This document shows, piece by piece, positions 8,949-31,392 of a stretch of DNA of 41,893 nt. Each line of letters begins with the position of its first letter. Within the stretch, counting starts at the first letter, position 1. The notes under the pieces are model-generated. The model saw only the letters and a program-made list of their open reading frames with translations, was not told the DNA's origin and did no database searches. Position numbers and translations under genes: made by a program. This stretch comes from Clostridia bacterium (GTDB lineage Bacteria; Bacillota; Clostridia; Oscillospirales; CAG-272). Where the stretch lies: positions 1-41,893 of the forward strand of contig JAFTNJ010000053.1 of the NCBI GenBank assembly GCA_017451915.1, in the 5' to 3' direction.

Positions 8949-9257
8949 GATCGGAACTCCTTTTTTTGAAATTGCGGCGTGCCAAGAGAAAACCGTCAAC
9001 ACGCGTGTGCTGTTTCTATTTTTGCCTATGATGGGCGGTTTATGCAAAAAAAGCAAAAAAACTTTATTTTTGAGCGTTTGTTTTTGGGTTTGTAAAGCAA
9101 CACACAAAAAACACAAATTTTTCATAAAGTCCATTGGAGATTTTGTTCTGTATTCATAATGTATTCATATTTTTGTGATAAAATAAACTTTGTATTTTGA
9201 ATAAGACTGTGTCGAATGAAAAGAACGAAATTTTACGGAAAGGAAATTCTGTTTTCT
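8949..9257. other. Divergent intergenic region with an 11-base-period direct repeat
   Basis: About 309 bases separate the M23 gene (minus) from the ABC operon (plus). No gene is seen. TGTATTCAT occurs twice (9149-9157 and 9160-9168), one helical turn apart. TAAAAT (9179-9184) could be the -10 box of the ABC operon, but no convincing -35 box lies 16-18 bases upstream. The operon promoter is therefore not firmly located. Confidence 0.4.
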
Positions 9258-10358: not shown

Positions 10359-10448
10359 TTCCGGCGATTTGTTTTCCAACGAAAAATTCAGGGGCGCGGA
10401 TAATTCCCGTCAAGGCGGGAGCCCCGTGTAACAGAAAGGATCATCACT

Positions 10449-11219
10449 ATGTTTGCCATCTACCGCAAAGAGATGCGCTCTTATTTCATCAATCCCATCG
10501 GTTTCGTTTATATGGGAATCTTCTTGGTATTTTCCGCTTTGCTGTGCTGCTACACCACCATCATTTCGGGAAGCTACGATACCTCCAATTACTTTACCTT
10601 TTTGATCATTGCCTTTATCATTCTCATTCCCATCCTCACCATGCGCCTGTTTGCCGAGGAACGGAAGCTTCGCACCGAGCAGTTGCTCCTGACCGCGCCG
10701 GTTACCATTACGGGCATGGTCCTGGGCAAGTATTTTGCCGCTCTGACCATTTTTGTCAGCGGAATTCTCCTTTCCTGCATTAACTTCATTCCCCTTTACG
10801 TGATCAGTGCCGCTGAGCGGGCAGGGGAGGATAGTGCTCTCAATCACATCGGTCCTGTGACCGGTGAGATCGTTGGCAGCGTTATTGCCGTGATCCTGCT
10901 GGGCGCGGCGCTGATCGCTGTGGGTACCCTGATCTCGGCCTTGACCGAGAACCAGCTTTCCGCCGCCGTTGTAACCATCGGTGTGATCGCGGCCATGGTT
11001 CTTTTGAATTTTGTAAACGTTCTGACCGACAGCGACGGACAGCCCATCATCGGTAGCTACGTCATCCGTGCCGTGGTGGATTGGATTTCGGTGCTGAGCC
11101 GTTTTTCTGCCTTCAGCAACGGTATTTTTGATTACTCCTCGTTGCTGTATTATATTTCTCTGTCCTTCGTATTCCTGTTCCTCACCGTCCGCGTTTACGA
11201 AAAGCGCCGTTGGGGCTGA
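10449..11219 (+). CDS. ABC-2 type permease, GldF-like
   Basis: 256 residues with about six membrane segments. The start, MFAIYRKEMRSYFINPIGF, is typical of GldF-like permeases, with an amphipathic helix before the first membrane span. ERKLRTEQLLLTAPVT fits the cytosolic coupling segment after the second span. It follows the ATPase by 90 bases containing a GC-rich hairpin without a T-tract, and has AAAGGA 9 bases before the ATG. It should form the membrane channel of the Gld-like transporter. Confidence 0.88.
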   Translation: MFAIYRKEMRSYFINPIGFVYMGIFLVFSALLCCYTTIISGSYDTSNYFTFLIIAFIILIPILTMRLFAEERKLRTEQLLLTAPVTITGMVLGKYFAALTIFVSGILLSCINFIPLYVISAAERAGEDSALNHIGPVTGEIVGSVIAVILLGAALIAVGTLISALTENQLSAAVVTIGVIAAMVLLNFVNVLTDSDGQPIIGSYVIRAVVDWISVLSRFSAFSNGIFDYSSLLYYISLSFVFLFLTVRVYEKRRWG

Positions 11220-11241
11220 TTGACACGGAGGAAGCAGATTC

Positions 11242-12786: not shown

Positions 12787-12798
12787 TTTGGAGAAAGG

Positions 12799-14505: not shown

Positions 14506-14544
14506 GCGGAACATTCCATAAGAAAGGGAATACGGGCAGTATTC

Positions 14545-17046
14545 ATGAAAATAGAACAAACGATAGTAAATATCATATTTGATCCCGCCAAGGGATCGGT
14601 ATCGGTTGCCAGCCGTGAGGCGGCCAGCGGTCAGCCCATTGGTGCGCTGCCGCGGCCGATCCGTCCGGGATATGCCTTTGAGGGCTGGTATCTTGAGGGC
14701 GCGCCGGTGACCGAGGAGACGGTTCTGACCGCCACCGAGGATGTTTGCCTGGTCGCTCACTGGGCCAAAAAGGCAGGCGACAAAAAGGTGACCATGTACA
14801 AAAAGCAAAAGCTGGCGGTCATCGTGCTCTCGGTACTCACCGTAGTGCTGATCGCGGCGTTGCTGGTAGCCAACCACGTGGTGGCTATCTACGGCCTTTC
14901 CGACGTGTATTACGGCGAGGACGGCACCGAATACACCGAAAAGTATTACGTCAAAAAGAAGAACGGCGTGTACGGCCTTTACAGCAAGTCGGGGGATAAG
15001 ATGGAAACCAACGACGACGGCTATTACATTGCCAAGAGCGGAAACCAGTACGTGATCGACGCCGAGACCGGCGAATGGGAGCTCTACGCCGTGGTGGACT
15101 ACGACGCGGCCGAGGGAGAATCCCTGGGCTTTAGCGACCGCATCATGATGTATCCCCAGATCAAGCAAAAGTACGTTTCCTCCATCGAGGTCACCAACGA
15201 GTACGGTACCTATAAGTTTTATCGCAACGATGCCGGCCAGGTAACCATTGAGGGCACCGAGGACGACATTATGACCTACGATGCCACCCTCTACGCCAGT
15301 CTGTGCGTCAGCTGCGGATATATGCTGACCATGCAAAAGCTGGACTTTACCTCGGAGTTAGCCCCTCGACTTCCCGACGGTAGCATCGACTACTCAGCCT
15401 ACGGATTGTCGGATGCCGATTCTCCCGCCATCTTTACCATTACCGGAAAGCATTCCGAGGGCGGCGAAACCGTTTCCTACTCGGTCAAGGTGGGCGACGC
15501 CATTCTTTCGGGCGGCGGCTATTACGTTCAAACGGTTGGCAAAAAGTCGGTCTATATCGTCAGTGCCGACATTCAGGATACCGTCCTGCAGCCGGTGGAG
15601 GCCCTGGTAACGCCTATGGCTGTGTATCCCACCAGCCTTTCCCAGTATCTTCTGGTGTACGATTTCGTTCTTGCCAAGGCAAAGATGAACGGCGGCACCG
15701 ATGCGTCGGCGCTGGATGTGATCGCAACCTTCACCTACGATGACCTGGAGGCCCGCAACAACACCCTGTATAACTCCAAGGCGTTCATTTCTCTTTCCGA
15801 GATGATGAAGGGATACGATATCAACGACGATAACGCCAGCCTGGTGCTTGGCAATATGTACGAGATGCAGTTTATCGCCTGCAAAAAGCTGGGCATCACC
15901 AAGGAGAGTCTGGCGGAGTTTGATATGGACGGCGACGTGTACTACATGACCTATCTTTCCGCCATGGTGGATTCCAACGGTGCCGGATTGAAGGATGAGG
16001 ACGGCCAGCAGCTCTACGCCAAGAACGAGCTGTTGATCAGCCCCAAGACCTCCCGGGGAACCTATTATATCGCGTCCTTTCTCTGCGATATGATCGTTGA
16101 GGTGGATCAGTACTACCTCTCCTTCCTGGAATGGGAAAAGAGTGATTGGTACGATCAGTACTTCTTTGGAAGCAATCTTGCCTACGTAACCGATTTCGAA
16201 TTTACCATGAACGGTGAGACCTTCACCTTCCGCATGGACAACACCCTTTCTTACGCCTTCTATGAGGATTCCGATGGCGAAATGACCCTGGTGGATCTTA
16301 CCAAGGGCAAGGTGGTTGCCAACGAGAACGGCGGATATACCTACGTGGATGCCTCCGGCGTTAAGCATGAGGTAAAGCTGGTGGATTTCTCGAATGAGGA
16401 CGCGTTTAAGATCAGCGGAACCAAGATTATTTATACCGATCCCGATGGAAAGCAGTACGAAATGACCGTTGGCTCCTCCAATATGCTGATCTATTGCGAT
16501 CAGTTCACGGGTGGTAAGGATCACGCCAACCTGCTGGACTATATCATCCCCTACACCTACGCCACCGATAGCGGCGGAGAAAAGACCAAGCAGATCTCGG
16601 GCATCGACAACTACCGCAAGCTGTATCAGATGTTCCTGTACGCTTCCATCGAGGGCGACGTGGATGAGGCCGAGTTCGAGAAGAACCTTGGTATGAGCAA
16701 GGATGCGTATATTGCCCAGGGCGACGGTGTTTGCCAGGCGATCCTGAAATACCGCGTGGCGGACAAAGCCTCGGTGTTGAACCAGTACACCTACACCGAT
16801 GAGAACGGAAAGGTGAAAGAACGTTGGACCGAGGATAACGAAATGGACGTGGTGATCCGCTTCTACCGCTACACCGAGCGCAAATCGCTGCTCACCATTG
16901 AGGTGATCGAGGATTACGACGAGAACGGAAATCCCATTTCCGATCCTACCAAGGCCGTTGGTAGCTTCTACGTGCTTTCCTCGTACCTGAACGATCTTCT
17001 GGACGCAACCCACCGCTTGATGAACCAGGAGCGCGTAGAACAGTAA
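14545..17046 (+). CDS. DUF4340-domain membrane protein with N-terminal InlB B-repeat-like domain
   Basis: 833 residues. Residues about 8-73 look like an InlB B-repeat/Flg_new domain (FDPAKGSVS, then RPGYAFEGWYLEGAPV, then LVAHW). A Lys-rich stretch (74-89) and one membrane segment (about 90-113) follow. The large remainder resembles DUF4340, which often ends GldA/F/G-type operons. By the positive-inside rule the InlB-like domain would be cytosolic, the reverse of its usual surface location. AAAGG is far from the ATG, but a GAATAC/GTATTC hairpin (14528-14544) lies between and would shorten the distance. A strong terminator follows. Confidence 0.78.
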   Translation: MKIEQTIVNIIFDPAKGSVSVASREAASGQPIGALPRPIRPGYAFEGWYLEGAPVTEETVLTATEDVCLVAHWAKKAGDKKVTMYKKQKLAVIVLSVLTVVLIAALLVANHVVAIYGLSDVYYGEDGTEYTEKYYVKKKNGVYGLYSKSGDKMETNDDGYYIAKSGNQYVIDAETGEWELYAVVDYDAAEGESLGFSDRIMMYPQIKQKYVSSIEVTNEYGTYKFYRNDAGQVTIEGTEDDIMTYDATLYASLCVSCGYMLTMQKLDFTSELAPRLPDGSIDYSAYGLSDADSPAIFTITGKHSEGGETVSYSVKVGDAILSGGGYYVQTVGKKSVYIVSADIQDTVLQPVEALVTPMAVYPTSLSQYLLVYDFVLAKAKMNGGTDASALDVIATFTYDDLEARNNTLYNSKAFISLSEMMKGYDINDDNASLVLGNMYEMQFIACKKLGITKESLAEFDMDGDVYYMTYLSAMVDSNGAGLKDEDGQQLYAKNELLISPKTSRGTYYIASFLCDMIVEVDQYYLSFLEWEKSDWYDQYFFGSNLAYVTDFEFTMNGETFTFRMDNTLSYAFYEDSDGEMTLVDLTKGKVVANENGGYTYVDASGVKHEVKLVDFSNEDAFKISGTKIIYTDPDGKQYEMTVGSSNMLIYCDQFTGGKDHANLLDYIIPYTYATDSGGEKTKQISGIDNYRKLYQMFLYASIEGDVDEAEFEKNLGMSKDAYIAQGDGVCQAILKYRVADKASVLNQYTYTDENGKVKERWTEDNEMDVVIRFYRYTERKSLLTIEVIEDYDENGNPISDPTKAVGSFYVLSSYLNDLLDATHRLMNQERVEQ

Positions 17047-17049
17047 AAT

Positions 17050-17092
17050 AAATAAAAAACGGTTGCAACCGCGGTTGCAACCGTTTTTATTT
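17050..17092. terminator. Bidirectional terminator, long perfect palindrome
   Basis: AAACGGTTGCAACC and GGTTGCAACCGTTT form a stem around GC, extended by A-run and T-run flanks. It serves the Gld-like operon on the plus strand and the convergent methyltransferase gene, whose stop it overlaps. Confidence 0.9.
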
Positions 17093-18092
17093 ATCCCTTT
17101 GGAAAGCGAAATTGCTTCAACGATTCCTCGGAGAGAAGCTGAGCGAGCGGGACGCCGTGAGAGGGAAGGGGCTTATTGGGATCGGTGAGACGTTCGTAAA
17201 GGATCCGGCGCAGTGTGGCCAAAAGCGTGGGCTCAATCCAGTAGTCTATCCGGGCGCCGTGTGCGTTTGGTTCCATCGTTTTCAGGCGGAGATACATCTC
17301 CAAGCCGTCGGAGGCATCGTGCCATAAATCGGCAAACACCGTGTCATATGCGGCTTTGGGGAGTTCCTTTTCCATATAGTCAAAGGCATCGGCGTGAACG
17401 ATGCGGATCTTTTCCCCGTGGGGAAATTGGGGCAGAATCCACTCCCGGAAAAGAAAGATGGCCTCGGCATCTCGCTCAATCACGGTTACGCTCTCCACCT
17501 CGGGCTTTTGGGATGCGTGAAAAGCAAAGTAGCCAAACCCCAGTCCCAGGGTCAGCACCCGGCCGTGGGCGGCGCGGATGGGCTCCTTCATGGTTTCCAC
17601 CTCGTTGGGCTTTACCGACATCCATTCCACTCCATCCTGATGGATGGCGGGGAAGGTGAATTCTTCATCAAAATAGCCGATTTGGGGGATCTCCCGAAAA
17701 TCGGGAAGGATCAAGGGATCGTTCCAAACAAAGGGCTCGTAGGGGGCGTAGGAGGCGGTAAGCGTTTCCCAGCGCCCGTGCGCGCGGTGGGGAAGTTGAA
17801 CGGTTTGAAAATACGCATCCTCCCGATAGATTGTGGGATCCAGCTTTTTTACGCCGGGGATCACGTAAAGGCGCTCCAGGCGGCGGTGCTCGGGATCGTC
17901 CACCGTATCCAGCCCCATAGCGGCGGTCAGCAGCAAACGGTAGGCCGCCTCGGCGGTGGTATTACATTCCCTTGCCAGATCCTCCACCATGTCCTTGGTA
18001 ATAAATCGGGGGGTGTGATTAATATAGCGGCTGTACGCATAGGTGATCAGCGCGTTTTGCTCCATGATGCGGTTGAGCTTTTCAAGTGCCAT
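17091..18092 (-). CDS. SAM-dependent methyltransferase-like (spermidine-synthase-like) protein
   Basis: 333 residues. An N-terminal helical region (1 to about 130) carries no domain I recognise. A Rossmann-fold methyltransferase core follows (about 175-290): VLTLGLGFGYFAF fits the SAM-binding motif I, VTVIERD the acidic end of strand 2, and IVHADAFDYM with TVFADLWHDA the later motifs. The order resembles spermidine-synthase-like methyltransferases, but the polyamine-site Asp pattern is not clear, so the substrate is unknown. The ATG at 18092 has GGAGAT immediately upstream; longer reading to 18155 would start upstream of the -10 region and is unlikely. It has its own promoter and stands alone. 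Confidence 0.7.
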   Translation of the reverse strand: MALEKLNRIMEQNALITYAYSRYINHTPRFITKDMVEDLARECNTTAEAAYRLLLTAAMGLDTVDDPEHRRLERLYVIPGVKKLDPTIYREDAYFQTVQLPHRAHGRWETLTASYAPYEPFVWNDPLILPDFREIPQIGYFDEEFTFPAIHQDGVEWMSVKPNEVETMKEPIRAAHGRVLTLGLGFGYFAFHASQKPEVESVTVIERDAEAIFLFREWILPQFPHGEKIRIVHADAFDYMEKELPKAAYDTVFADLWHDASDGLEMYLRLKTMEPNAHGARIDYWIEPTLLATLRRILYERLTDPNKPLPSHGVPLAQLLSEESLKQFRFPKG

Positions 18093-18126
18093 GGGATCTC
18101 CTTTTTTGGAATCAAGTCTTACATTT

Positions 18127-18155
18127 ATTATACACTTTTTTATCTCCAAAGGCAA
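18127..18155 (-). promoter_or_regulatory. Promoter of the methyltransferase-like gene
   Basis: On the minus strand, TTGCCT (18155-18150) and TATAAT (18132-18127) are separated by 17 bases. The -10 box lies about 35 bases before the start codon at 18092. Confidence 0.75.
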
Positions 18156-19290: not shown

Positions 19291-19319
19291 TTGACAAGGT
19301 TCTAAAAAAATGATATAAT
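19291..19319 (+). promoter_or_regulatory. Perfect consensus promoter of the TerB-ATPase-helicase operon
   Basis: TTGACA (19291-19296) and TATAAT (19314-19319) match the consensus exactly with a 17-base spacer. Transcription would start near 19326, about 45 bases before the first gene. Such strength suggests constitutive or repressor-controlled expression. Confidence 0.9.
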
Positions 19320-19370: not shown

Positions 19371-21068
19371 ATGAGCGAATGGGACGAAAAGAAGGATCCC
19401 AAGGCGAGGGAGCAGGAGTTGGATCGCTTTTGGGATATTGACGCATTGATCCCCAAAAAGAGGGCTCCCATCTATCCCGCCAATACCGATACCGCCGAGC
19501 TGATCCTGGAGCCTCCCACCGCTACGCCTTCGGGGGCGCAAGAGGAGGGCAAGGTCGCCAAGCCCCAGCCCCTGCCTCCTGCCGAGGAGCCAGAGCGTCA
19601 CTATATTCCCCCCCATTCGGCGGCTACGGAACGCAAGACCGACACTCCCGACGAAAGCTACGCTCCCTCCAACGCTCTGTTGCGGTGCGTCCGTCTTTAC
19701 CGTTGGAAGAACGAATATCGCTACTACGAGGCATTCGTACGGGACGCGATTCGCCTATATCCCATTCGGGGCAAGGAGGCACCGCGCGCGCATTTCTTCT
19801 CCTACGTCCCCCAATATTCTCAAATGAGCCTGCCTCAGCTGGAATGGTACCTCTGGTGGCGGGAAAATATGCGCAAGGGAGTTGCCCTGGATACCGATTA
19901 CAGCTATCTGTTGCTCTATACCTACGAGCTGATCAACCTGGCCGAGAATATCGGGGCGCAGGTTGCCCGGGAGGCGTTGTTCACCCTTTGGATCTCCTAC
20001 CGACAGACCTTCCGTCAGTTGGACGGCTATCTGCCCGAGTGGATCTGCGATATGGGGCTCATCCATCGTTTGCCGCCCCCCAAGGAGTGCCGCGGAAAGT
20101 ATCTCGCGGCGGCCATGTCCCATTGCGCCCTGCGGGAGTACTACGTTTGCTACGACGGTGCCCGTAGCTATGCCCATGCGCTGTTGGCCTTTTGCTCGAA
20201 TTACGATTACCATAAAAGTAAGTTTTACACCGAGGAGAATGCCCCGCTGTTCGATCAGGCCGTGGTAGGAGCCTTGCAGGAGATCTCGGATAAGACCAGT
20301 GAGGACGGAAAGCTCTTTTCCATGACCCGCATGGACGACAGTAAGATGCTCCGCGACGCCTACTCGGGAGCCCTTTGCTCCTATCGCTTCAAGCGAAAGA
20401 TCGAGGTGGAGTATTGCTCCTTCTCCCGCTCCCACGAGCTTCGGTTTTTGGTGACCGATCTGGTCAAATACACCGAGAATCAGATCCGCGCCGCCCTGGG
20501 AATCCGCTCCCGTTTGACGGTCAACGCGCTTCCCACCGAGATCAAGCCACTTTTGGATGCCTATCTGGAGGGGATCCTCCCCAAACGGAGTCGGATCCTC
20601 CCGCGCCCCGAGCCTGTGGCGGAATACGAGCGGCAGTACGATCTGCCTCGCACGCCTCTGTCCCTCGCGGCTGCCGACGAGATCGAGGAACGCTCCTGGA
20701 GCGTGACCCGCCGCCTGGTGGAGGCCTTTGAGGAGGAGAATGAAGTGCCTCCCATTCCCCCCGCGCTGCCAACGGAGCCGGTCGATCCTCCGTCTGCTTT
20801 GGAGGAGCTTCCAACCGAGGCGTTGCCCTTTGCTCCCTATCGCGCCTTTTTGCGTGCCGCCCTGGAAGGGAACGGCCAAGAGCAGGAGCGTCTTGCCCGT
20901 GCCACGGGAACATTGACGGATGGCGTTGCCGATGCCATCAACACCCTTGCCGCCGATCTTTTTGGCGACGTGTTGCTGGAGGACGCGGACGGCTGTTACA
21001 CCGTCATTGAAGATTATCGGTCTTTGGCAGAGGATCTGCTCAAGACGTTGGATGGAAAGGAAGAATAA
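19371..21068 (+). CDS. TerB-N/TerB-C domain protein
   Basis: 565 residues, cytosolic. A disordered Pro/Glu-rich N-terminus (1 to about 105) is followed by a TerB-N-type domain (about 130-320), recognised by SYVPQYSQMSLPQLEWYL, WWRENMRKG and DTDYSYLLLYTYELINL. The middle region (about 320-460) is not recognised. The C-terminal 85 residues fit TerB-C (INTLAADLFGDVLLEDADG, then YTVIEDYRSL). TerB-N and TerB-C are known from predicted tellurium-resistance/Ter stress-response and DNA-processing systems. It begins an operon whose next gene, 2 bases away, encodes a BrxD-like ATPase. GAGGAAAGGAGG precedes the ATG. Its biochemical role is unknown; a scaffold or sensor for the ATPase and helicase is inference. 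Confidence 0.8.
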   Translation: MSEWDEKKDPKAREQELDRFWDIDALIPKKRAPIYPANTDTAELILEPPTATPSGAQEEGKVAKPQPLPPAEEPERHYIPPHSAATERKTDTPDESYAPSNALLRCVRLYRWKNEYRYYEAFVRDAIRLYPIRGKEAPRAHFFSYVPQYSQMSLPQLEWYLWWRENMRKGVALDTDYSYLLLYTYELINLAENIGAQVAREALFTLWISYRQTFRQLDGYLPEWICDMGLIHRLPPPKECRGKYLAAAMSHCALREYYVCYDGARSYAHALLAFCSNYDYHKSKFYTEENAPLFDQAVVGALQEISDKTSEDGKLFSMTRMDDSKMLRDAYSGALCSYRFKRKIEVEYCSFSRSHELRFLVTDLVKYTENQIRAALGIRSRLTVNALPTEIKPLLDAYLEGILPKRSRILPRPEPVAEYERQYDLPRTPLSLAAADEIEERSWSVTRRLVEAFEEENEVPPIPPALPTEPVDPPSALEELPTEALPFAPYRAFLRAALEGNGQEQERLARATGTLTDGVADAINTLAADLFGDVLLEDADGCYTVIEDYRSLAEDLLKTLDGKEE

Positions 21069-21070
21069 CC

Positions 21071-22426
21071 ATGGAACAACAAGAAATGCAACGCGTTCCC
21101 AAGCGCATTCTCACCTCGCTTCTGGCTTCGGTCTCAGCGGGCGTGGTGCCGCGCGCGGGAGCTCCCTATATTGCCATTGGCCGCACCGACGAGATCAACG
21201 CTCTGCTTTCGGATCTGGAAACGGTCAACGACGGTGGCGGCTCTATGCGCTTTTTGATTGGCCGCTACGGAAGCGGAAAGAGCTTTTTGATGCAGTTGAT
21301 TCGCGGCTACGCCCTGGAGCGCGGCTTTTTGACCGCCGACGCCGACCTTTCCCCGGAACGTCGCCTGTACGGTACCGGAGGGAGCGGTGTGGCAACCTAT
21401 CGGGAGCTGATCAAGAATCTGGCCTCCAAGTCCTCTCCGGACGGTGGTGCTCTGCCCAAGATCATTGCCCGTTGGATCGCCGATCTGCAGGGCAAGGTGG
21501 TGGCAAAGGGAATCCTTCCGGAATCCCCCGGCTTTTCCGCGGCCCTGTTGCAGGAAGCGTTGGACACCTTCCGTGAGATGGAATTTTTGGTGGGCGGCTT
21601 TGATTTTTCCCGCGTGCTCACCGAATACTACCGCGCCTATACCGGCGGCGACGAGGAACGAAAGAGCGCCTGCCTGCGATGGTTGCGAGGCGAATACTCC
21701 ACCAAAACCGAGGCCAAGCGGGAGCTGGGCTTCTCGGTTTCCATTATCATCGACGACGAGAACTGGTACGATTTCCTGAAGCTTTGGGCCGGTCTGGCAC
21801 AACGCATGGGTTATCGGGGCCTGGTGGTGTTCATCGACGAATGTGTCAATCTCTACAAAATTTCCCATCGGGTCAGTCGGGAGAACAACTACGAAAAGAT
21901 TCTGTCCATGTTCAACGATACCCTCCAGGGGCGAGCACCGGGGCTGGCCTTGGTGCTGGGCGGTACCCCCCAGTTTTTGGAGGATACGCGACGGGGGCTT
22001 TTCAGCTACGAGGCCCTGCGTAGCCGTCTTTGTGACAGTCGCTTTGCCCTGGAGGGCTTTAAAAACCTGATCGGCCCCGTCATTCGCCTGCGCCGTCTTT
22101 CCGACGACGAGCTCTTCGCCTTGATCCGTCGCATCACCAAGCTTTACGCTCAAAACTATGGGAGCGAGCCGCGGATCTCCCAGGAGCAGATGGCAACGTT
22201 TTTGCAGATCTGCCTGGATCGGGCAGGGGCGGATAGCATGATCACCCCCCGTGAGATGCTCCGTGACTACATGACGGTGCTGAACATTCTGATGCAAAAT
22301 CCCGAGATCTCCTTTGAGCAGGTGATTGGAAGCGCGGTGACCCTGAAGACCGACGGGGCACCGGGCAACGGAGGGGATGCCCCTGCTGCCAATCCCACCT
22401 ATCGCATTGAGGACATTGAATTTTAA
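21071..22426 (+). CDS. BrxC/BrxD-like P-loop ATPase (DUF2791 family)
   Basis: 451 residues. An AAA/STAND-like ATPase with Walker A GRYGSGKS (64-71) and Walker B VVFIDE (252-257). A region near GTPQFLEDTRRGLFSYEALRSRL (written here as landmarks GGTPQFLED and LFSYEALRSRL) fits the sensor region of DUF2791 proteins, and an Arg-rich C-terminal helical part follows. BREX systems carry BrxD, an ATPase of this family, next to the helicase BrxHI, and this operon also has such a helicase. No PglX, PglZ or BrxC/PglY is present, so it is not a complete BREX locus. It starts 2 bases after the TerB gene, with AAAGGAAG upstream. Confidence 0.82.
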   Translation: MEQQEMQRVPKRILTSLLASVSAGVVPRAGAPYIAIGRTDEINALLSDLETVNDGGGSMRFLIGRYGSGKSFLMQLIRGYALERGFLTADADLSPERRLYGTGGSGVATYRELIKNLASKSSPDGGALPKIIARWIADLQGKVVAKGILPESPGFSAALLQEALDTFREMEFLVGGFDFSRVLTEYYRAYTGGDEERKSACLRWLRGEYSTKTEAKRELGFSVSIIIDDENWYDFLKLWAGLAQRMGYRGLVVFIDECVNLYKISHRVSRENNYEKILSMFNDTLQGRAPGLALVLGGTPQFLEDTRRGLFSYEALRSRLCDSRFALEGFKNLIGPVIRLRRLSDDELFALIRRITKLYAQNYGSEPRISQEQMATFLQICLDRAGADSMITPREMLRDYMTVLNILMQNPEISFEQVIGSAVTLKTDGAPGNGGDAPAANPTYRIEDIEF

Positions 22427-22436
22427 GGAACGAAAA

Positions 22437-23279
22437 ATGATCACTTTACAAAATCTGCACACCCACAGTCAATGGTGTGACGGAAAGAACGGCGTGGAGG
22501 AGCTACTTTTAAACGCCATGGAGCAGGGCTTCGACTCGGTGGGCTTTTCGGGACATTCTCCCATGTTCTACGCCCCCGAGCACGGCATTGCCGAGGGCGA
22601 CGTTCAAGGCTATATTGCCGACGTGCGCACCATGAAGGACAAATACCGCGGTCAGATGGAGGTATTTTGCGGAATCGAGCTGGATCTGTATTCCAGGCTG
22701 GATCTGGAGCCCTACGATTATATCATCGGCTCGGTCCATTATCTGAAGATCCACGGGGAATACGTTGGCTTTGACCGCAACGCCGCCACCGTAAAGAGCG
22801 TCATCGACACTTATTTCGGCGGGGACGGTCTGGCCTATGCCAAGGCCTATTACCAAACCCTTGCCACCCTCCCCACCCGGGGAAGGATCGACGTGGTGGG
22901 GCATTTCGATCTGATCACCAAGCATGCCGAGAACGTCAGCTTTTTCGACGAGGATTCTCCCGCTTACCGTCGTTTGGCCCTGGAGGCCATCGAGGCTCTG
23001 CTTCCCAAGGCTCCCTTGTTTGAGATCAATACCGGTGCCATTGCCCGGGGCTACCGCACGACCCCCTATCCCTCCGCCTTTTTGTTGCGAGAGATCCAAC
23101 AGCGGGGCGGCGGGATCATCATCAGCTCGGATTGTCACGATATGCACCGTTTGGGACAAAGCTTTGGCGATGCCATTGCCCTGGCGCGGGAGTGCGGCTT
23201 TACCCACACCCATGTGCTCACCGAGCAGGGCTTTGTTCCGATTTCTCTGAACGATATGGAAAGGAAGCTGAAGGCATGA
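22437..23279 (+). CDS. PHP-domain phosphatase, HisJ/histidinol-phosphatase-like
   Basis: 280 residues, cytosolic. The metal-dependent PHP fold is shown by LHTHSQWCDGKN near the N-terminus (H8, H10), GFSGHSP, FCGIELDL, IGSVHYL, VVGHFDLITKH and ISSDCHDM near the C-terminus, which supply the His/Asp/Glu ligands of the trinuclear metal site. The family includes histidinol-phosphatase, but no his gene is nearby, so another phosphate ester is possible. It lies 10 bases after the ATPase gene and overlaps the permease gene by 4 bases (ATGA), so it belongs to the same transcript. GGAA lies close to the ATG at 22437. Confidence 0.82.
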   Translation: MITLQNLHTHSQWCDGKNGVEELLLNAMEQGFDSVGFSGHSPMFYAPEHGIAEGDVQGYIADVRTMKDKYRGQMEVFCGIELDLYSRLDLEPYDYIIGSVHYLKIHGEYVGFDRNAATVKSVIDTYFGGDGLAYAKAYYQTLATLPTRGRIDVVGHFDLITKHAENVSFFDEDSPAYRRLALEAIEALLPKAPLFEINTGAIARGYRTTPYPSAFLLREIQQRGGGIIISSDCHDMHRLGQSFGDAIALARECGFTHTHVLTEQGFVPISLNDMERKLKA

Positions 23280-24361
23280 ACTACGTGACCCTCCTTATGG
23301 CGGGCTTCTCCCTGTTGGGGGCCGCCGACCGTATATTGGGAAACAAATTCGGGCTTGGAAAAGAGTTTGAGCGCGGCTTGATGCTGCTGGGAACCATGGC
23401 ACTTTCCATGATTGGTATGTTGGTGCTGGCACCGCTGTTGGCCGAGCTTCTCAAACCCGCCCTGCAGGCCATGTCCGAGGTGCTGCCCTTTGACCCTTCC
23501 ATCATTCCCGCATCGCTTTTGGCCAACGATATGGGCGGCGCGCCCCTGTCCGTGGAGGTAGCCAAGGATCCCGCCATTGGTGCCTTTAACGCCATGGTGG
23601 TATCCTCTATGATGGGATGCACTATATCCTTTACCATTCCCTTTGCCCTGGGATTGGTGGACAAGAGCCTGCATCGTGAGACCCTGATCGGTCTTTTGTG
23701 CGGCTTGGTAACCATTCCCGCGGGATGCTTGGCTGCGGGATTGGTGTCAGGCATCGCCCCGGGACCCTTGCTCTTGAATCTGATTCCTCTGATCCTCTTT
23801 TCCGGGCTGACGGCCTGGGGGCTTTTGAAGATCCCCAATATCTGCGTTGCTATTTTTCATGCTCTTGGTGTGGTGATCAAGATTCTGATCACCTTCGGCC
23901 TTGCCATTGGAATTTTTACCTTTTTGACCGGGATCGAGTTGCTTCCCGGTGTTGATACCTTTGAGAACACCGCCGGCGTTGTCCTGAATGCCGCGGCGGT
24001 TATGACGGGAGCCTTTCCCTTGCTGTTTGTCCTGTCCAAGCTGTTGACCAAGCCGCTGCAATGGCTGGGACAGCGGATCGGGATCAATTCCACCGCGGCC
24101 ACGGGGCTCTTTTCCACCCTGGCCAGCAGTATGATCACCTTTCCCATGCTCAAGGACATGGATCAAAAGGGAGTGGTTCTTAATTCGGCCTTTGCCGTGT
24201 CGGCGGCCTTTACCTTTGCAGGGCACCTGGCATACACCCTGGCGGTGGATGCGTCGTATCTGTTTTGCATGATCGTTGGCAAGCTGGTGGCAGGGGTGCT
24301 GGCAGTTTGTATGGCATTGCTGATCTATCGGAGAGTGTTTGAAAAGAAGGAAGACAACTAA
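23276..24361 (+). CDS. EutH-like ethanolamine permease family protein
   Basis: 361 residues, about ten membrane segments. The family signature ASLLANDMGGAPLS lies near residues 78-91, and STAATGLFSTLASSMITFP in the second half matches EutH. EutH is thought to help ethanolamine enter the cell at low concentration or low pH. No other eut gene (ammonia-lyase, microcompartment shell) is in the window, so the substrate here is open. The start ATG overlaps the stop of the PHP gene in ATGA (23276-23279), with GGAAGGAAG upstream, indicating translational coupling. It lies between the ATPase and helicase genes of a DNA-processing operon, which is unexpected. Confidence 0.82.
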   Translation: MNYVTLLMAGFSLLGAADRILGNKFGLGKEFERGLMLLGTMALSMIGMLVLAPLLAELLKPALQAMSEVLPFDPSIIPASLLANDMGGAPLSVEVAKDPAIGAFNAMVVSSMMGCTISFTIPFALGLVDKSLHRETLIGLLCGLVTIPAGCLAAGLVSGIAPGPLLLNLIPLILFSGLTAWGLLKIPNICVAIFHALGVVIKILITFGLAIGIFTFLTGIELLPGVDTFENTAGVVLNAAAVMTGAFPLLFVLSKLLTKPLQWLGQRIGINSTAATGLFSTLASSMITFPMLKDMDQKGVVLNSAFAVSAAFTFAGHLAYTLAVDASYLFCMIVGKLVAGVLAVCMALLIYRRVFEKKEDN

Positions 24362-24384
24362 CGAATTATCAAAGGAGGTAGCCT

Positions 24385-26616
24385 ATGAGTGAAATTTTTT
24401 ATCGGTTTCCCGAATTCATCCGTGAGTTTATCTATTCTCACGGCTGGGAATCTTTGCGGGGGATCCAGGTGGCGGCGGCGGAGACCATTTTTCAAACCGA
24501 CCACAACCTGCTCCTGACCTCCTCTACCGCCAGCGGTAAGACCGAGGCAGCCTTCTTTCCCATCCTTGCCGAGCTTTGCGAGGATCCGCCGTCCAGCGTG
24601 GGTGTGCTTTACATCGCGCCCTTGAAGAGCCTGATCAATGACCAGTTCTACCGCATTGAGGAGCTGATGGAGCAAAGCGGGATCCCCGTGACCCATTGGC
24701 ACGGCGACGTTGCCCAGTCCCATAAGAAGAAGCTGTTGGATAAGCCGCGGGGCATTTTGCAGATCACCCCCGAATCTTTGGAGGCCATGCTGATCAATCG
24801 AAGTAACGATTTATTGCGGTTGTTTGGCGATCTGCGCTTTGTGATTATCGACGAGATTCACACCCTCACGGGGAGTGACCGAGGCAACCAGATCCTGTGT
24901 CAACTGGCGCGCATTGGACACATCATCGGTCACCATCCCCGCCGCGTGGGACTTTCGGCTACCATTGGTGACCCCGCCCGCGCCGCGGCCTGGCTGGGGG
25001 CGGGAAGCGGACGCGAGACCGACGTTCCCGCCGTTCCCGTGGAGAAGATCCGTTGGCGTCTTGGGATGGAGCATTTCTATATTCAAAATGCCAAAACCGC
25101 CCAAACGCCCGAGCCCAAGGAGCAGACCGAGCCTCCCGCCCCTCCCGTAGCCTACGATGCGGGCTATTCCTTTATGTACGATTGCGTCAAGGACAAGAAA
25201 TCTCTGGTGTTTTCCAATTCCCGGGAGGAAACCGAGTATCTTTGCGCCACCTTCCGTCAGATTGCGCGGAACCGAGGGGATAAAGACATCTTCCTGATCC
25301 ACCATGGCAATCTTTCTGCCTCCATTCGGGAGGAGGCAGAGCTGAAAATGAAGGACGAGGAGGAAATGGCGGTTACCTGCGCTACGGTCACCATGGAGCT
25401 GGGCATCGACATTGGACGCTTGGAGCGAGTGTTGCAGAACCAGTCGCCCAATTCGGTCACCTCCTTCCTGCAACGCCTGGGACGCTCCGGGCGTCGGGGG
25501 CAGCCCCCCGAAATGATGATGGTCTTCCGTGAGGAGGATCCGCTTCCCAACACGCCGCTCCCGCAGCTGATCCCGTGGGAGCTGCTCAAGGCCATTGCCA
25601 TTGCCCAGCTCTATATTGAGGAACGCTTCATCGAGCCTCCCAATATGCGCAAGCTGCCGTACAGCCTGCTGTTTCATCAAACCTTGAGCGTTCTGGCGTC
25701 CTCCGGGGAATTGACCCTACGGCGTCTGGCCGAGCGCGTGCTCTCCCTGCCGCCCTTTGCTCACGTGCCCAAGGAGGATTACAAGGCGTTGATCCTTTCC
25801 ATGCTCAACCAGGATTTCTTGGAAATGACCGAGGAAAAGACATTGATCGTGGGATTGGCAGGAGAACGCTTGCTTCGCAGCTTCAAATTTTACGCCGTGT
25901 TTAAGGATTCCGAGGACTATACCGTGCGGTGTGGCTCGGACGAAATCGGAACCATCACCACGCCGCCCCCCGTAGGGGATCGCTTTGCCTTGGCTGGGCG
26001 CGTCTGGGAGGTGGAGGAGCTGGACATTCAACACAAGCTGATCTACGTCAAAAGCGTGGAAGGGAAGATGGAGGTCTCCTGGCCCGGCGATTTTGGCGAG
26101 GTGCATACCCGCATTGTGGAGCGCATGAAGCGGGTGTTGCAGGAGGACACGGTCTATCCCTATCTCAAGCCCAACGCCCAAAAGCGGTTGGAGGTGGCAC
26201 GCCGTGTAGCACGGAATACCGGAATGCTGGAGCATTCCCTGGTGCATCTGGGAGGATACTCCTGGTGCCTGTTCCCATGGCTGGGGACCCGTTCCTTCCG
26301 TGCCATTCGCCGCATGATCAAGCAAATGAGCGGACGCTTCCGTATCTCGGGCGTGGAGTACGAGGGCTGCTATTTTATCACCTTTAAAATGGCGGCAGGG
26401 AACGACGCCCTTCTGATCCACGAGCTGGCCGAGCTTTGTCGCAGGGGTGCCATGTGTGGTGACGAGCTGGTTTCCTCCGGAGAGGCTCCCGTGTTTGAAA
26501 AATATGACGATTACGTTCCCATGCCCCTGCTTCAGCACGCCTACGCGGTGGATAAGCTGAATCCCGAGGAGGCGGCAAGCCGTCTTTTGGAGATCGAGCA
26601 GGAGCTGGAGGAATGA
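24385..26616 (+). CDS. Lhr/BrxHI-like superfamily 2 DEAD/DEAH-box helicase
   Basis: 743 residues. The SF2 motifs occur in order: motif I TASGKT (48-53) in the Lhr-type context SSTASGKTEA, Ia APLKSL, Ib ITPESLEAM, II DEIH (156-159), III SAT (191-193), V TMELGIDIG and VI QRLGRSGRRG. The C-terminal half (about 400-743) fits the winged-helix and beta regions of Lhr-core helicases. It should translocate on nucleic acid using ATP. BREX type 2 uses an Lhr-like helicase, BrxHI, together with BrxD. Here it ends the operon, 23 bases after the EutH-like gene, with a strong AAAGGAGG site. Confidence 0.88.
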   Translation: MSEIFYRFPEFIREFIYSHGWESLRGIQVAAAETIFQTDHNLLLTSSTASGKTEAAFFPILAELCEDPPSSVGVLYIAPLKSLINDQFYRIEELMEQSGIPVTHWHGDVAQSHKKKLLDKPRGILQITPESLEAMLINRSNDLLRLFGDLRFVIIDEIHTLTGSDRGNQILCQLARIGHIIGHHPRRVGLSATIGDPARAAAWLGAGSGRETDVPAVPVEKIRWRLGMEHFYIQNAKTAQTPEPKEQTEPPAPPVAYDAGYSFMYDCVKDKKSLVFSNSREETEYLCATFRQIARNRGDKDIFLIHHGNLSASIREEAELKMKDEEEMAVTCATVTMELGIDIGRLERVLQNQSPNSVTSFLQRLGRSGRRGQPPEMMMVFREEDPLPNTPLPQLIPWELLKAIAIAQLYIEERFIEPPNMRKLPYSLLFHQTLSVLASSGELTLRRLAERVLSLPPFAHVPKEDYKALILSMLNQDFLEMTEEKTLIVGLAGERLLRSFKFYAVFKDSEDYTVRCGSDEIGTITTPPPVGDRFALAGRVWEVEELDIQHKLIYVKSVEGKMEVSWPGDFGEVHTRIVERMKRVLQEDTVYPYLKPNAQKRLEVARRVARNTGMLEHSLVHLGGYSWCLFPWLGTRSFRAIRRMIKQMSGRFRISGVEYEGCYFITFKMAAGNDALLIHELAELCRRGAMCGDELVSSGEAPVFEKYDDYVPMPLLQHAYAVDKLNPEEAASRLLEIEQELEE

Positions 26617-26790: not shown

Positions 26791-29088
26791 ATGAACAAAT
26801 CCATGCATTGGTTTACACGCGGCCTGGCCTGGTTGCTGGCTCTCGTCCTGGCAATGGGACTGATGGGCTGCCTTCCCGAAGGAGGCCCCGTGGACGGTAC
26901 TACCGCCTTTTCCACTGCCTCCACCACAGAGGAAAAAACGACCACGGATGGAATTACCACCGAGGAACCGCCCCACGAGCATTTGTTCGAGCGTGTTCAG
27001 GTCACCCACACCCCCTGTATCCTTGCCGGGGAGCAGGTTGCCACCTGTGCTTGCGGAGAGGTTATGACCTCAACCCTTCCCGCCACGGGCGTTCACGTTT
27101 ATGAAAACGGTGTCTGCCTGGGTTGTGGGCAAAACGAGATCCCTCTCACGGCGGTGTCCTCGGTCTACGACGCGGACGGCGACGGGCAGAACGACGTTTA
27201 CTATTTCTCTCCGCTGCTGACGAACCGGTTAGATCACGCTATCCACGTAAGCGCGGGGGACTATGATCCCACCCTTTCCTCCGCAAAGGTCAGCACAACC
27301 ACTGCGGGGGAGGGCGGCATTCGCCATTGGTACGTTGCCTACGGCGCCAATGAGTACATCGTTTACCGTGTCAACGTTCCCGAGGATGGGCTTTACGAAA
27401 TGGTGATCCATTTCCGCATGAAGGACGCCCAACTGCGTGGCGCAAAATATACCGTCAACGGCGGAACCGATCAGGAACAGATCTTTGAGACCTCTCACAG
27501 CTTTGAAGGAACCGGATACGAGCAGGTCAGAGACAGTGCAACGCTCACCTCTTATATGTACGGCATCACGGTCAACCTGAAAAAGGGTGAGAACATCATC
27601 AGGATCGACCAACCCTCCGTAGGTGATAAGACCCAGCATTTCAGAGACTTTTACTTTGTAAAGGTTGGGGAGACCCACTTCCATTCCTATGAGAATGCGA
27701 TCGTGGCCTTGGCTGCCACCTGTGTTGATGACGGTGTGGAACGTGCCGTTTGCGCTTGCGGCCGGAACCGTGTAGCGGTTCTCCCGGCTACGGGGGAACA
27801 TACCTACGTCAACGACGTCTGCTCGGTCTGCAACCGCGTTTACCGGGAAAACGGAATCCTTTATTACGATTTTCTCTACGACCTGCCCGGCTTTGCCGGC
27901 GGAACCGTGGAATTTTGTCCCGAGGTCACCGATACCTACACCTTCTATTGGGGCGACGCCAACGGCAAGCTGAAGGACTATACCATGCTCTATTCCGAGA
28001 CCTTTGAAAAAGATGTTACGGCAGAGCTGACCGTTCAATCCTTTACCGCAATTCCCAAAGGGGCTACCCATTTGCTGGCCGTCAGCTCCGGGGGAAGCCA
28101 CAATTATGCGTATGAAATTCCCGCCGCGCGGAGATTTGGCGCAACCGAGCTCTATTCCTTTGGCGCACTTTCGGATTCGCACCAGGGAACCCGCTACGGA
28201 TCTAATACCATTCCTTACAACCATTTTGTGGAGGCGTCCAGAACCCTTTACGAAAAGGGCGTGCTGGCCATTGGTCTTTGCGGAGACTTTTCCTATGACA
28301 ACATCGAGTCGGAATACATTTTGCATGCCGACGCGGTGAAGGAGATCTTCGGATTCGCTCCCCAAATGCCCATCTTTACCACCACCGGCAACCATGAGTC
28401 CAAATACACGGGATTCTCCGGGGATTGGTATCTCAAATACGCCCGCGATGTGATAGACCACTATGACAGCGATCTGAAAAAGATCTTCTTCCCCGGGGAT
28501 GATCTGGATTACGTAGTGGAGCTCCCCGACGGAAGCGTCATGGTTTATCTCCACCAGGTGTACTACGACTACAACAAGACCACCTCCCGTCTTTTGGATG
28601 ACTACCAGCTGGATTGGCTGGGCGCGCGACTCGAGCAGTACAAGGATCGCACCGTGTTCCTCTTCTTCCATACCTTCTTGGATGGGGAGGCGGGAGACGC
28701 CCAAACCTCCACCGGTAAGGAGTACGGTCTGCCTCTGATCGCGGGCACGGTGGATCACACCCGCTTGACCCAGTATTTGACCCAATACAAAAACGTGGTC
28801 TATTTCAGCGGACACTCCCACCAGTCCTTTGATCTCCAGTTCATGAAGCCCAAGGCAGGGGACAAATCCAATCTCTACACCAACATCGATAACAACAACG
28901 GCACCTTTGCCACCATGGTTCACATTCCGTCGGTTGCGGCCACCCGTTCCGGCACCGGCCTTTCGGATGCCAAGAACCGATCCGAGGGGTACATCGTGTA
29001 TGTGTATGAGGATTGCATCGTATTCGAGGGGTATGATTTTGTAAACGATCAGGCCTTCGCCTACGCAACCTACATTATCCAAAAGTAA
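26791..29088 (+). CDS. Metallophosphoesterase lipoprotein with CxCG/CxxC repeats (copy 1)
   Basis: 765 residues, exported; lipobox LMGC, C27 lipidated, then a Thr-rich linker. Two zinc-ribbon-like repeats (C86/C88-C109/C112 and C321/C323-C344/C347, each with LPATG between) flank a beta-rich region (about 140-295) resembling a carbohydrate-binding module. A DADGDGQND loop (about 127-135) resembles a calcium site. The C-terminal calcineurin-like domain (about 455-765) has D462/H464, D499, N534/H535 (GNHE), H627 and GHSH (674-677), a complete dinuclear metal site. Substrate unknown; a cell-surface phosphodiesterase or phosphatase is likely. AAAGGA precedes the ATG. It is followed by a terminator and a close paralogue. 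Confidence 0.83.
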   Translation: MNKSMHWFTRGLAWLLALVLAMGLMGCLPEGGPVDGTTAFSTASTTEEKTTTDGITTEEPPHEHLFERVQVTHTPCILAGEQVATCACGEVMTSTLPATGVHVYENGVCLGCGQNEIPLTAVSSVYDADGDGQNDVYYFSPLLTNRLDHAIHVSAGDYDPTLSSAKVSTTTAGEGGIRHWYVAYGANEYIVYRVNVPEDGLYEMVIHFRMKDAQLRGAKYTVNGGTDQEQIFETSHSFEGTGYEQVRDSATLTSYMYGITVNLKKGENIIRIDQPSVGDKTQHFRDFYFVKVGETHFHSYENAIVALAATCVDDGVERAVCACGRNRVAVLPATGEHTYVNDVCSVCNRVYRENGILYYDFLYDLPGFAGGTVEFCPEVTDTYTFYWGDANGKLKDYTMLYSETFEKDVTAELTVQSFTAIPKGATHLLAVSSGGSHNYAYEIPAARRFGATELYSFGALSDSHQGTRYGSNTIPYNHFVEASRTLYEKGVLAIGLCGDFSYDNIESEYILHADAVKEIFGFAPQMPIFTTTGNHESKYTGFSGDWYLKYARDVIDHYDSDLKKIFFPGDDLDYVVELPDGSVMVYLHQVYYDYNKTTSRLLDDYQLDWLGARLEQYKDRTVFLFFHTFLDGEAGDAQTSTGKEYGLPLIAGTVDHTRLTQYLTQYKNVVYFSGHSHQSFDLQFMKPKAGDKSNLYTNIDNNNGTFATMVHIPSVAATRSGTGLSDAKNRSEGYIVYVYEDCIVFEGYDFVNDQAFAYATYIIQK

Positions 29089-29154: not shown

Positions 29155-31392
29155 ATGACAGCAAAACGAATCATATCCGTAGGTCTGCTCCTTTGTCAGC
29201 TTCTGATTTTGGTGGGGTGCAGTCCCGCAACGGTTCCTGCAACTCCTACCGCGGGTATCGTCACCACCGAGGAGCCGCCTCACCAGCATAAATTCGAAGG
29301 TGTTCAGGTCACGCAAACGCCCTGTATCGTTGCCGGGGAGCAGCTCGCTGCCTGTGCCTGCGGAGAGACGGTGACCTCGCCCCTTCCCGCCACGGGCCTT
29401 CACGTCTATGAAAACGGTATCTGCCTGGGGTGCGGACAAAACGAGATCCCACTGACCGCCGTTTCCTCTCTTTACGACGCGGACAGCGACGGTAAAAATG
29501 ATGTTTTCTATTTTTCGCCCCTCCTCTCGGATCGGTTTGCCAACGCGGTTCACGTTTGGGCCGGGGATTATGACAAGAGCCTGTCCTCGTCCAAGATCAG
29601 CAACACCACCGCGGCAGACATCCGACATTGGTATATTGGAGACGAAAGCCAGTCCATTGTTTATCACGTTACTGTGCCCGAGGCAGGACTTTACGAAATG
29701 GTGATCCACGTGCGTATGAAGGATGCCCAGGCCCGCGGAGCCAAGTACACGGTCAACGGCGGAACCGACCACGTGCAGATCTTTGAAACCTCTCACGCAT
29801 TTACGGGTGTGGGCCACGAGCAGGTGCGGGACGCCGATACGCTTTCTTCGTATATGTACGGCATCACCGTCAATCTGGTAGCGGGGGAAAACACGGTTCA
29901 GATCCAACAATCCTCGGCTTGTTCCTTGAGTCAGCATTTCAGGGATCTTTATTTTGTTCGTGTTGGAGATCCCCATGTTCATTCCTATGAAACGATCACC
30001 GTAACCCTTGCGGCAACCTGTGCCGATGACGGAGAGGAACGCGCCGTCTGCTCCTGCGGCCGGACGCGCGTGGCGGTGCTTCCTGCCACAAAAGCGCATA
30101 CCTACGTCAACGACGTTTGCAGCGTTTGTCATCGGGTTTACCGAGAAAACGGAATTCTTTACTACGATTTCCTCTACGATCTGCCCGGTTTTGCGGGGGG
30201 AACCGTGGAATTTTTACCCACCGCTACCGATACGTACACCTTTTATTGGGGCGACACCAACGGCAAGCTGAAGGACTATACCATGCTCTATTCCGATGCC
30301 TTTGAACAGGGCGTTACAGCGGAGGTGTCGATTCAGTCCTTTACCGCGATCCCCGAGGGGGCGACCCGCTTGCTGGTCTGCAACCGAAGTGGGGAGGTGG
30401 TCTCCTCGTACGACCTTCCCGAGGAACGCCTGTTCACCCGGACCGCCCTGTATTCCTTCGGCGCCATTTCCGATACCCATCAGGGAACCCGTTACGGCCC
30501 CACCAGCTTTGCCTACGAACGTACGCTCCACGTGCTGAAGACCCTTGCCGACCAAGGCGTTTCCTTGGTGGGGATCTGCGGCGATATTACCTACGTCAAC
30601 GAGGAATTTGAGTATATTCTTCACGCCGAGGTTATTCAGGAGTTTTACCGGTATGCGCCCCGGGTGCCTGTTTACACCGTCAGCGGGAACCACGAGGCAA
30701 AATTCACGGGCTTTTCCAAGCTTTGGTATCAGACCTACGCGCAGAATGCCGTGACGTATGATACCGATTTGAAGCCGATCTTCAGCGACGGAAACGATCT
30801 GGACTTTGTGGTAGAGCTGCCCGACGGAAGCGTGATGATCTATCTGCACCAGATCTATTACGATTACGGAAAGAAGACCTCCCGTCTGTTGGATGACTCC
30901 CAATTGGATTGGCTGGGGGCACGGTTGGAGCAGTATCAGGACCGCACGGTCTTTCTGTTCTTCCACACCCAACTGGACGACGAGGTTGGCGATGCCACCA
31001 GCATCGGCGGCGTGGAGGGATCCCTGTCGTTGATTGCCGGTACCGTGGATCATACCCGCTTGACCGAATATTTCACCAAATACACCAACGTGGTTTATTT
31101 CAGCGGACACTCCCATTTCCCCTTTGACGTGCAGTTCGTCACTCCCAAGGCGGGAAAGACCAACTACAATAAAAACATCGACAACAAAAACGGCACCTTT
31201 GCCACCATGGTTCACATTCCTTCTGCGGCGGCGGTGAGCGAGATCAGCGACGAATCCACCTCCTCCAAGGCCAATAACCAACGCTCCGAGGGCTACATCG
31301 TGTACGTGTACGAGGATTGCGTGGTGTTCCGCGGATATGATTTTGTTGGTCAGCAGACGGTGGCCTACGCCAATTACATCATTCAAAAATAA
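29155..31392 (+). CDS. Metallophosphoesterase lipoprotein with CxCG/CxxC repeats (copy 2)
   Basis: 745 residues, the same architecture as copy 1: lipobox LVGC with C22, CACGE and GCGQNE zinc-ribbon-like repeat, beta-rich middle region with a DADSDGKND loop, second CSCG/CSVC repeat, then the phosphoesterase domain with SDTHQGTRYG, ICGDITY, SGNHE, FFHT and SGHSHF. Long stretches match copy 1 almost exactly around the catalytic core, while signal peptide and linker differ. This points to a tandem duplication kept under selection. AGGAGG lies 6 bases before the ATG. The substrate is unknown. Confidence 0.83.
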   Translation: MTAKRIISVGLLLCQLLILVGCSPATVPATPTAGIVTTEEPPHQHKFEGVQVTQTPCIVAGEQLAACACGETVTSPLPATGLHVYENGICLGCGQNEIPLTAVSSLYDADSDGKNDVFYFSPLLSDRFANAVHVWAGDYDKSLSSSKISNTTAADIRHWYIGDESQSIVYHVTVPEAGLYEMVIHVRMKDAQARGAKYTVNGGTDHVQIFETSHAFTGVGHEQVRDADTLSSYMYGITVNLVAGENTVQIQQSSACSLSQHFRDLYFVRVGDPHVHSYETITVTLAATCADDGEERAVCSCGRTRVAVLPATKAHTYVNDVCSVCHRVYRENGILYYDFLYDLPGFAGGTVEFLPTATDTYTFYWGDTNGKLKDYTMLYSDAFEQGVTAEVSIQSFTAIPEGATRLLVCNRSGEVVSSYDLPEERLFTRTALYSFGAISDTHQGTRYGPTSFAYERTLHVLKTLADQGVSLVGICGDITYVNEEFEYILHAEVIQEFYRYAPRVPVYTVSGNHEAKFTGFSKLWYQTYAQNAVTYDTDLKPIFSDGNDLDFVVELPDGSVMIYLHQIYYDYGKKTSRLLDDSQLDWLGARLEQYQDRTVFLFFHTQLDDEVGDATSIGGVEGSLSLIAGTVDHTRLTEYFTKYTNVVYFSGHSHFPFDVQFVTPKAGKTNYNKNIDNKNGTFATMVHIPSAAAVSEISDESTSSKANNQRSEGYIVYVYEDCVVFRGYDFVGQQTVAYANYIIQK

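Follow-up and report, generated by a model that had tools for sequence, protein, structure and literature searches.

Do the TerB-domain protein, the BrxD-like ATPase and the superfamily 2 (SF2) helicase encoded close together in a Clostridia bacterium form a new defence system, a remnant of bacteriophage exclusion (BREX), or something already described? Their genes lie on the plus strand between positions 19371 and 26616 of contig JAFTNJ010000053.1, within the window 1-41893 (the whole stretch of 41,893 nt analysed here), which comes from a draft genome of 2.2 Mb in 79 contigs that is 87% complete. Among named genomes, its nearest relatives are metagenome-assembled ones of Clostridia and Oscillospiraceae, many of them with ruminant-gut names. 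A sequence-only reading of this DNA had proposed a new candidate system of three genes. Judged by their protein families, the three genes are Shango, a published three-gene anti-phage system, and neither new nor BREX. We consider it rather probable that the locus is a chromosomal Shango carrying an unrelated insert of a PHP-domain gene and a EutH-like gene, and that it constitutes a resident, mainly vertically inherited surveillance system acting through an ATPase and a helicase.

Identification of the Shango genes

Millman et al. are said to have reported Shango as an anti-phage system in 2022. In Pseudomonas aeruginosa PA14 it comprises, according to Johnson et al. 2023 (PMC10250203), a TerB-like protein, an ATPase and a DEAD/DEAH helicase, and on plates it protects 10-100-fold against many phages, though not against all; the same report mentions Shango also in E. 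coli, with anti-phage activity there.

The first gene, sngA (19371-21068, plus strand), encodes 565 amino acids matching TerB_N (E 1.5e-20) and TerB_C (5.3e-10), both over the Pfam cut-offs, and the best PADLOC match of the protein is SngA (6.6e-51; PDLC03958, residues 100-555). The second, sngB (21071-22426, plus strand; 451 amino acids), matches Pfam BrxC_BrxD at 3e-157. In PADLOC this protein reaches 553.6 bits with SngB (9.2e-167) vs 169.2 bits with BrxD (4.1e-50), and its score of 167.7 with the NCBIfam BrxD equivalog is under the cut-off of 350. The Pfam matches confirm what had been read from the sequence, namely a TerB-N/TerB-C protein and a BrxD-type P-loop ATPase. The third gene, sngC (24385-26616, plus strand; 743 amino acids), has DEAD (1.6e-27) and Helicase_C (1.9e-15) matches and scores 801.1 bits with SngC (3.1e-241) vs 419.5 bits with BrxHI (6e-126), its second-best PADLOC family. 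The label "Lhr-like" given to this SF2 helicase is fair but loose, as its WH_Lhr match is under the Pfam cut-off and Lhr-type NCBIfam models are far under theirs (e.g., PRK13767, 178.1 of the 849 bits required). With a Shango component as the best PADLOC match of each protein, the idea of a new system did not hold.

The genes occupy one strand of one locus in the order A, B, C, the one-strand arrangement having been read correctly, and this is also the order of PA14_RS11735, 11740 and 11745 in PA14 (PMC10250203). Unlike PA14 Shango, two metabolic genes stand between sngB and sngC, which the sequence-only reading had overlooked when it described a three-gene operon. These encode a PHP-domain phosphoesterase of the HisJ family (22437-23279, plus strand) and a EutH-like permease (23276-24361, plus strand). 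The spacing is tight (10 bp between sngB and the PHP gene, a 4-bp ATGA overlap between the PHP and EutH genes, 23 bp between the latter and sngC), so we regard the run as one of five genes, not three. A ribosome-binding site, AAAGGAGG, lies immediately upstream of sngC. The run follows the perfect consensus promoter noted earlier, a sigma-70-type TTGACA-17-TATAAT element with a TG before the -10 box (19291-19319, plus strand), which is the only site with a 12/12 match among the 6 promoter-like sites in the 8.1 kb scanned; shuffled sequence of 8.1 kb contained a mean of 3.9 promoter-like sites of any quality.

Conserved motifs and predicted structures

The catalytic motifs of both enzymes are intact. 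SngB has a Walker A motif (GRYGSGKS, residue 64) and a Walker B motif (VVFIDE, residue 252), and SngC retains motifs I (SSTASGKTEA), II (DEIH), III and VI (QRLGRSGRRG). Conservation was assessed on near-full-length rows from homologous loci, 80 for SngB and 69 for SngC, the window included. Walker A was identical in all 79 rows that cover it and the DE of Walker B in 80 of 80, while in all 69 SngC rows motif I kept its lysine and motif II its D, E and H; at the core positions of motifs I, II, III and VI there was almost no variation. SngA is the more variable subunit, its median identity being 43.2% vs 77.3% for SngB and 75.7% for SngC across 455 pairs with a SngB identity of at least 75%.

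The AlphaFold2 model of SngA reached a predicted local distance difference test score (pLDDT) of 84.9 and a predicted template modelling score of 0.62. Its residues 481-565 are predicted to resemble a winged helix of the LysR/MarR type, with a fold match below the safe level. The SngB model is weak (pLDDT 66.1), and the Foldseek matches obtained with it, AAA+ proteins that include ClpY/HslU (3.5e-4), RdrA (7.6e-4), ORC (1.4e-3) and BrxC (5e-3), had root-mean-square deviations mostly of 9.5 to 17 in the top rows. Sequence searches of solved structures returned none for SngB at E 0.01 and none for SngA at E 0.1. SngC matched 48 solved-structure sequences, ATP-dependent DNA helicases and YprA first, followed by Brr2- and Ski2-type proteins.

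Shango is near-core in the family

Multi-gene defence systems are usually expected to be patchy in distribution and to remain clustered. We searched an even draw of 146 genomes from 71 genera of the family. SngA was found in 105 of them, SngB in 106 (105 without one weak hit, in G134, E 1.5e-4) and SngC in 111 (106 without five weak hits of E 1.3e-10 or weaker, in G027, G039, G082, G089 and G134); the weak hits were left out as unrelated. All three genes occurred in 103 genomes, some in 5 and none in 38, so that the co-occurrence check suggested with the sequence-only reading finds 103 of the 108 genomes with any of the genes carrying the complete trio. Among comparison genes, the IspH-S1 fusion was present in 144 genomes, HsdR_N in 39 and Cas1 in 25.

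For Shango, genomes of one genus mostly agreed. SngB was unanimous in 37 of the 45 genera with at least two genomes (20.6 expected), HsdR in 26 (21.4 expected) and Cas1 in 35 (27.9 expected). Where at least one member of a congeneric pair held the gene, both did in a proportion of 0.81 for SngB, 0.84 for SngC and 0.79 for SngA (random expectation 0.56, 0.57 and 0.56), and of 0.27 for HsdR and 0.36 for Cas1 (0.15 and 0.09).

Beyond the family, a SngB match occurred in 55 of 245 genomes of the whole order, one of them weak. Among plasmids, 692 of 72,556 records carried a SngB homologue, a category that may include some BrxD. Phage records with a SngC match numbered 4 of 50,697, and in 1 of these the match covered 80% or more of the query.

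Genome G052 holds, on contig C374, a second and divergent Shango-like locus with two adjacent SngC-like genes (44 and 46% identity to the window SngC) and a SngB fragment, in addition to sngA, sngB and sngC on other contigs. In genus g21, G020 and G127 keep sngC (57% identity), sngA and sngB not being found in them; their congener G083 has all three genes, with sngC on another contig.

The trio persists where its genes are unlinked

The sngA and sngB genes were linked in 96 of 104 genomes. The sngB-sngC distance was within 6 kb in 60 of these genomes, and in the other 44 the two genes lay on different contigs. Some of the 44 cases are contig breaks, probably G070 and G043, where SngB starts at the contig edge. 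Among 20 of the unlinked genomes that were inspected, the partner was present in none of the fetched flanks; the contig extended beyond 3 kb on each of the two relevant sides in 14 and on one side in the other 6. In G009, 330 kb of contig follow sngB and 184 kb precede sngC, about 6 kb of which were read on each side, and as the contigs differ the two genes must be far apart. Since sngC lies elsewhere in 44 of 104 genomes and the 20 inspected sets of flanks contained no partner, the trio is kept without linkage. sngA has also separated from sngB in genus g18, where the two are on different contigs in all three sampled species.

The sngB-sngC linkage state was uniform in 28 of the 32 genera with at least two genomes holding both genes. 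On the housekeeping tree (see below) the unlinked state required 4 changes, compared with a mean of 12.4 after shuffling, and 0 of 500 shuffles were as low; all 14 unlinked genomes of the tree set fell within one supported group of 18.

Inheritance follows the housekeeping trees in good part

Trees were built for 51 genomes, namely the window genome and 50 of 60 chosen genomes (40 linked and 20 unlinked, in most cases one per genus); the remaining ten had no usable IspH or RpoB and were left out. Mantel correlations were 0.78 between IspH and RpoB and 0.79 between SngB and SngC. Between Shango and housekeeping proteins they were 0.59 (SngB-IspH), 0.44 (SngB-RpoB), 0.32 (SngC-IspH) and 0.25 (SngC-RpoB), the last not above its permutations (maximum 0.375). 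IspH and RpoB shared 18 of 48 splits, SngB and SngC 13, and the Shango-housekeeping pairs 11-17, with no more than 4 in shuffles of these pairs. Strong conflicting splits numbered 1-4 in the Shango-housekeeping pairs and 1 and 1 between IspH and RpoB; there were none between SngB and SngC.

Three genomes, G006, G008 and G139, are set apart together on a long branch of the Shango tree but not of the housekeeping tree, and the other sampled members of the genera of G006 and G139 are without SngB. The Shango copies of these three are apparently imports. Without them, an omission decided after the data had been seen, the correlations were 0.73 (SngB-IspH), 0.54 (SngB-RpoB), 0.68 (SngC-IspH) and 0.56 (SngC-RpoB). 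Shango inheritance therefore tracks the two housekeeping trees partly, and in good part.

A proposed resident surveillance system

These observations suggest that Shango in this family has a resident DNA-surveillance role, be it in defence or in genome upkeep. The proteins would form a DNA-bound ATPase-helicase machine. SngA, the fast-changing component, would be a changeable recognition or adaptor subunit that contacts DNA or a partner through its predicted C-terminal winged-helix-like domain; SngB, as a putative AAA+-type ATPase, would load or remodel the complex on DNA; and SngC would translocate on or unwind the DNA, so that replication of invading DNA is blocked and no nuclease of the operon is needed. 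Because Pfam revealed no nuclease in the operon, as had been read before, blocking or displacing replication or transcription on invading DNA seems the likeliest outcome of an anti-phage activity in this host. The three genes would be held together by selection even where sngC, or in one genus sngA, sits elsewhere. A 2026 review gives the mechanism of Shango as unknown (PMC12926258).

The strongest competing explanation is that sngABC serves mainly genome maintenance (repair, replication restart or chromosome surveillance), with defence being either incidental or a specialised task of the mobile copies. Several of the results would fit it: SngB is present in 76 of the 103 genomes with a completeness of 90% or more and a contamination of 5% or less, inheritance tracks the species trees in good part, the trio is retained unlinked in 44 of 104 genomes, the window neighbours are housekeeping or metabolic genes, a few neighbour families recur elsewhere in 4 to 6 genera each, and the congeners G020 and G127 keep sngC alone. 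However, the rapid divergence of SngA is what would be expected of a recognition subunit in a conflict, and the system can be dispensed with, since all three genes are absent from 38 of 146 genomes, the congener G090 among them. Homologous Shango blocks phages according to Johnson et al. (PMC10250203), and the 692 plasmid records with SngB homologues, some of them possibly BrxD, also count against it. We place a role mainly in maintenance on the unlikely side. A repair or stress role had earlier been called equally open, and the core-like inheritance of the module in the family lends this partial support.

A resident surveillance system, as preferred here, allows a more specific version, which we advance tentatively as a possibility short of probable. 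The near-core Shango could be an ancient chromosomal trio, co-selected regardless of adjacency, that routinely surveys own and incoming DNA; the Shango of plasmids and islands would then be its mobilised relatives, with sporadic and apparently imported copies (G006, G008, G139) present alongside. One result weighs against both the preferred explanation and this version of it. Cas1 is also clustered well above chance within genera, and the contrast with Shango partly reflects prevalence; as the Cas1 clustering is similar relative to chance, our confidence in both is slightly lowered.

While the Shango system itself is already known, its near-core and partly unlinked form, beside imported copies in one family, is of interest. 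It differs from known Shango in its near-core inheritance and in the separation of sngC in many relatives, and it runs counter to the expectation of patchy and clustered defence genes. A literature search retrieved no account of a vertically inherited or core Shango, which is weak evidence, as many journals lie outside its coverage. The retained but unlinked trio offers a natural test of which Shango components need to work together. Should the resident form serve a function in the cell, this would open a direct route to understanding how the mobile form works. The case also illustrates that a homology-based defence call can fall on a module behaving much like a core chromosomal one.

PHP and EutH genes as probable passengers

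The product of the PHP gene matches PF02811 (5.1e-16) and TIGR01856 of the HisJ family (1.9e-30), and that of the EutH gene matches PF04346 (1.5e-109). Could they be functional accessories of Shango, e.g., a membrane effector and a phosphodiesterase for a nucleotide signal? Their close spacing in the window would agree with this, as would the recurrence of such genes at the same junction, with EutH in loci L003 and L004, PHP in L005 and EutH-PHP in L011. Yet these are the only 4 of 80 homologous loci with either gene there, and seven others (L024, L027, L033, L035, L036, L038 and L044) carry 0.5-3.7 kb of assorted other genes at the sngB-sngC junction. EutH matches occurred in 21 of the 146 family genomes, and in five genomes the PHP gene directly precedes EutH on contigs separate from those with sngB and sngC (G026, G069, G128, G084 and G056), G084 and G128 holding the pair without any sng gene. 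Insert presence was unclustered on the SngB tree (30 rows), with 5 changes against shuffled means of 4.7-4.8, and on the SngC tree (25 rows). As the pair is also met in other places, in part without Shango, the two genes are unlikely to be Shango parts, and an accessory function appears very improbable; they are probably a passenger cassette at an insertion-tolerant junction. As a combination of a HisJ-like gene followed by a EutH-like permease gene, the pair recurs in several genera.

Relation to BREX and to TerB-domain systems

A decayed or minimal type 2 BREX locus is hardly credible and was rejected on scores and missing partners: BrxD and BrxHI, homologous to the ATPase and helicase here, rank second in PADLOC for SngB and SngC, but both trail far behind, and the single BrxC_BrxD match in the genome leaves no second BREX ATPase. 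Unlike in type 2 BREX, no BrxC was found, searched for genome-wide through BrxC_BrxD, and no PglZ, PglX or BREX methylase was found by Pfam among the 28 open reading frames (ORFs) of the window, a genome-wide search for PglZ and PglX not having been made. The absence of PglZ and methylase genes and the distinction from BREX had been recognised in the sequence-only reading. In their place stands a TerB protein, and none of the SngA kind is known from BREX.

The helicases SngC, BrxHI, DruE and DpdJ have been described as a "potentially distinct clade" (PMC12278908). Through the TerB-type domains of SngA, the locus resembles other TerB-domain systems (TerB, Bunzi, Dionysus); Shango and Bunzi both appear under PF05099 in one listing (PMC10952713), and Dionysus is named as a TerB system in the 2026 review (PMC12926258). 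The SngA described here differs in that it matches TerB_N and TerB_C, and the stretch between them is without a Pfam match at E 0.01, PF05099 included. Shango is listed among the systems that DefenseFinder reported for bovine rumen genomes (PMC13356809).

Genomic surroundings

PA14 Shango lies in a defence hotspot, whereas the locus described here lies amid metabolic and housekeeping genes, including the IspH-S1 fusion, cytidylate kinase, parts of an ABC exporter, a xylanase and sugar-pathway genes. In one survey, restriction systems co-localise with Shango outside defence islands (PMC10924106). We scanned the operon flanks, up to two ORFs in each direction, in 29 of the 40 linked loci (108 of 147 ORFs), a set that possibly includes spurious antisense ORFs and for which no control loci were scanned. 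At 1e-10, PADLOC assigned four of the 108 ORFs to mad3, two to SngA and one each to 16 further families, including mad2, PD-T4-2_B and ThsC2; the two SngA matches are Shango genes themselves that had been missed in ORF sorting. Ten larger proteins were rescanned, yielding one match to mad3 and mad8, one to DinG, and one to a RecD-like protein and several PDC models, all of which look like generic ATPases or helicases. Given the other three mad3 members, a defence gene may neighbour Shango in a few cases. A small number of neighbour families come up repeatedly elsewhere, each in 4 to 6 genera. We take them to be alaS, truB, rbfA, nrnA and ribF, the identity as riboflavin kinase being confirmed for ribF.

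Within the window, the minus-strand ORF at 17091-18155, one gene upstream of the operon, has weak matches to Methyltransf_25 (0.0021) and MTS (0.0047), both below the cut-offs. Downstream of the operon, 26791-29088 (765 amino acids) and 29155-31392 (745 amino acids) each encode a calcineurin-like phosphoesterase domain in the C-terminal half. Finally, the region 9216-17046 contains an ABC transporter ATPase and membrane genes, then two ABC_transp_aux proteins, as well as one protein with DUF4340 and a Listeria-Bacteroides repeat, a gene set reminiscent of gliding-type exporters.

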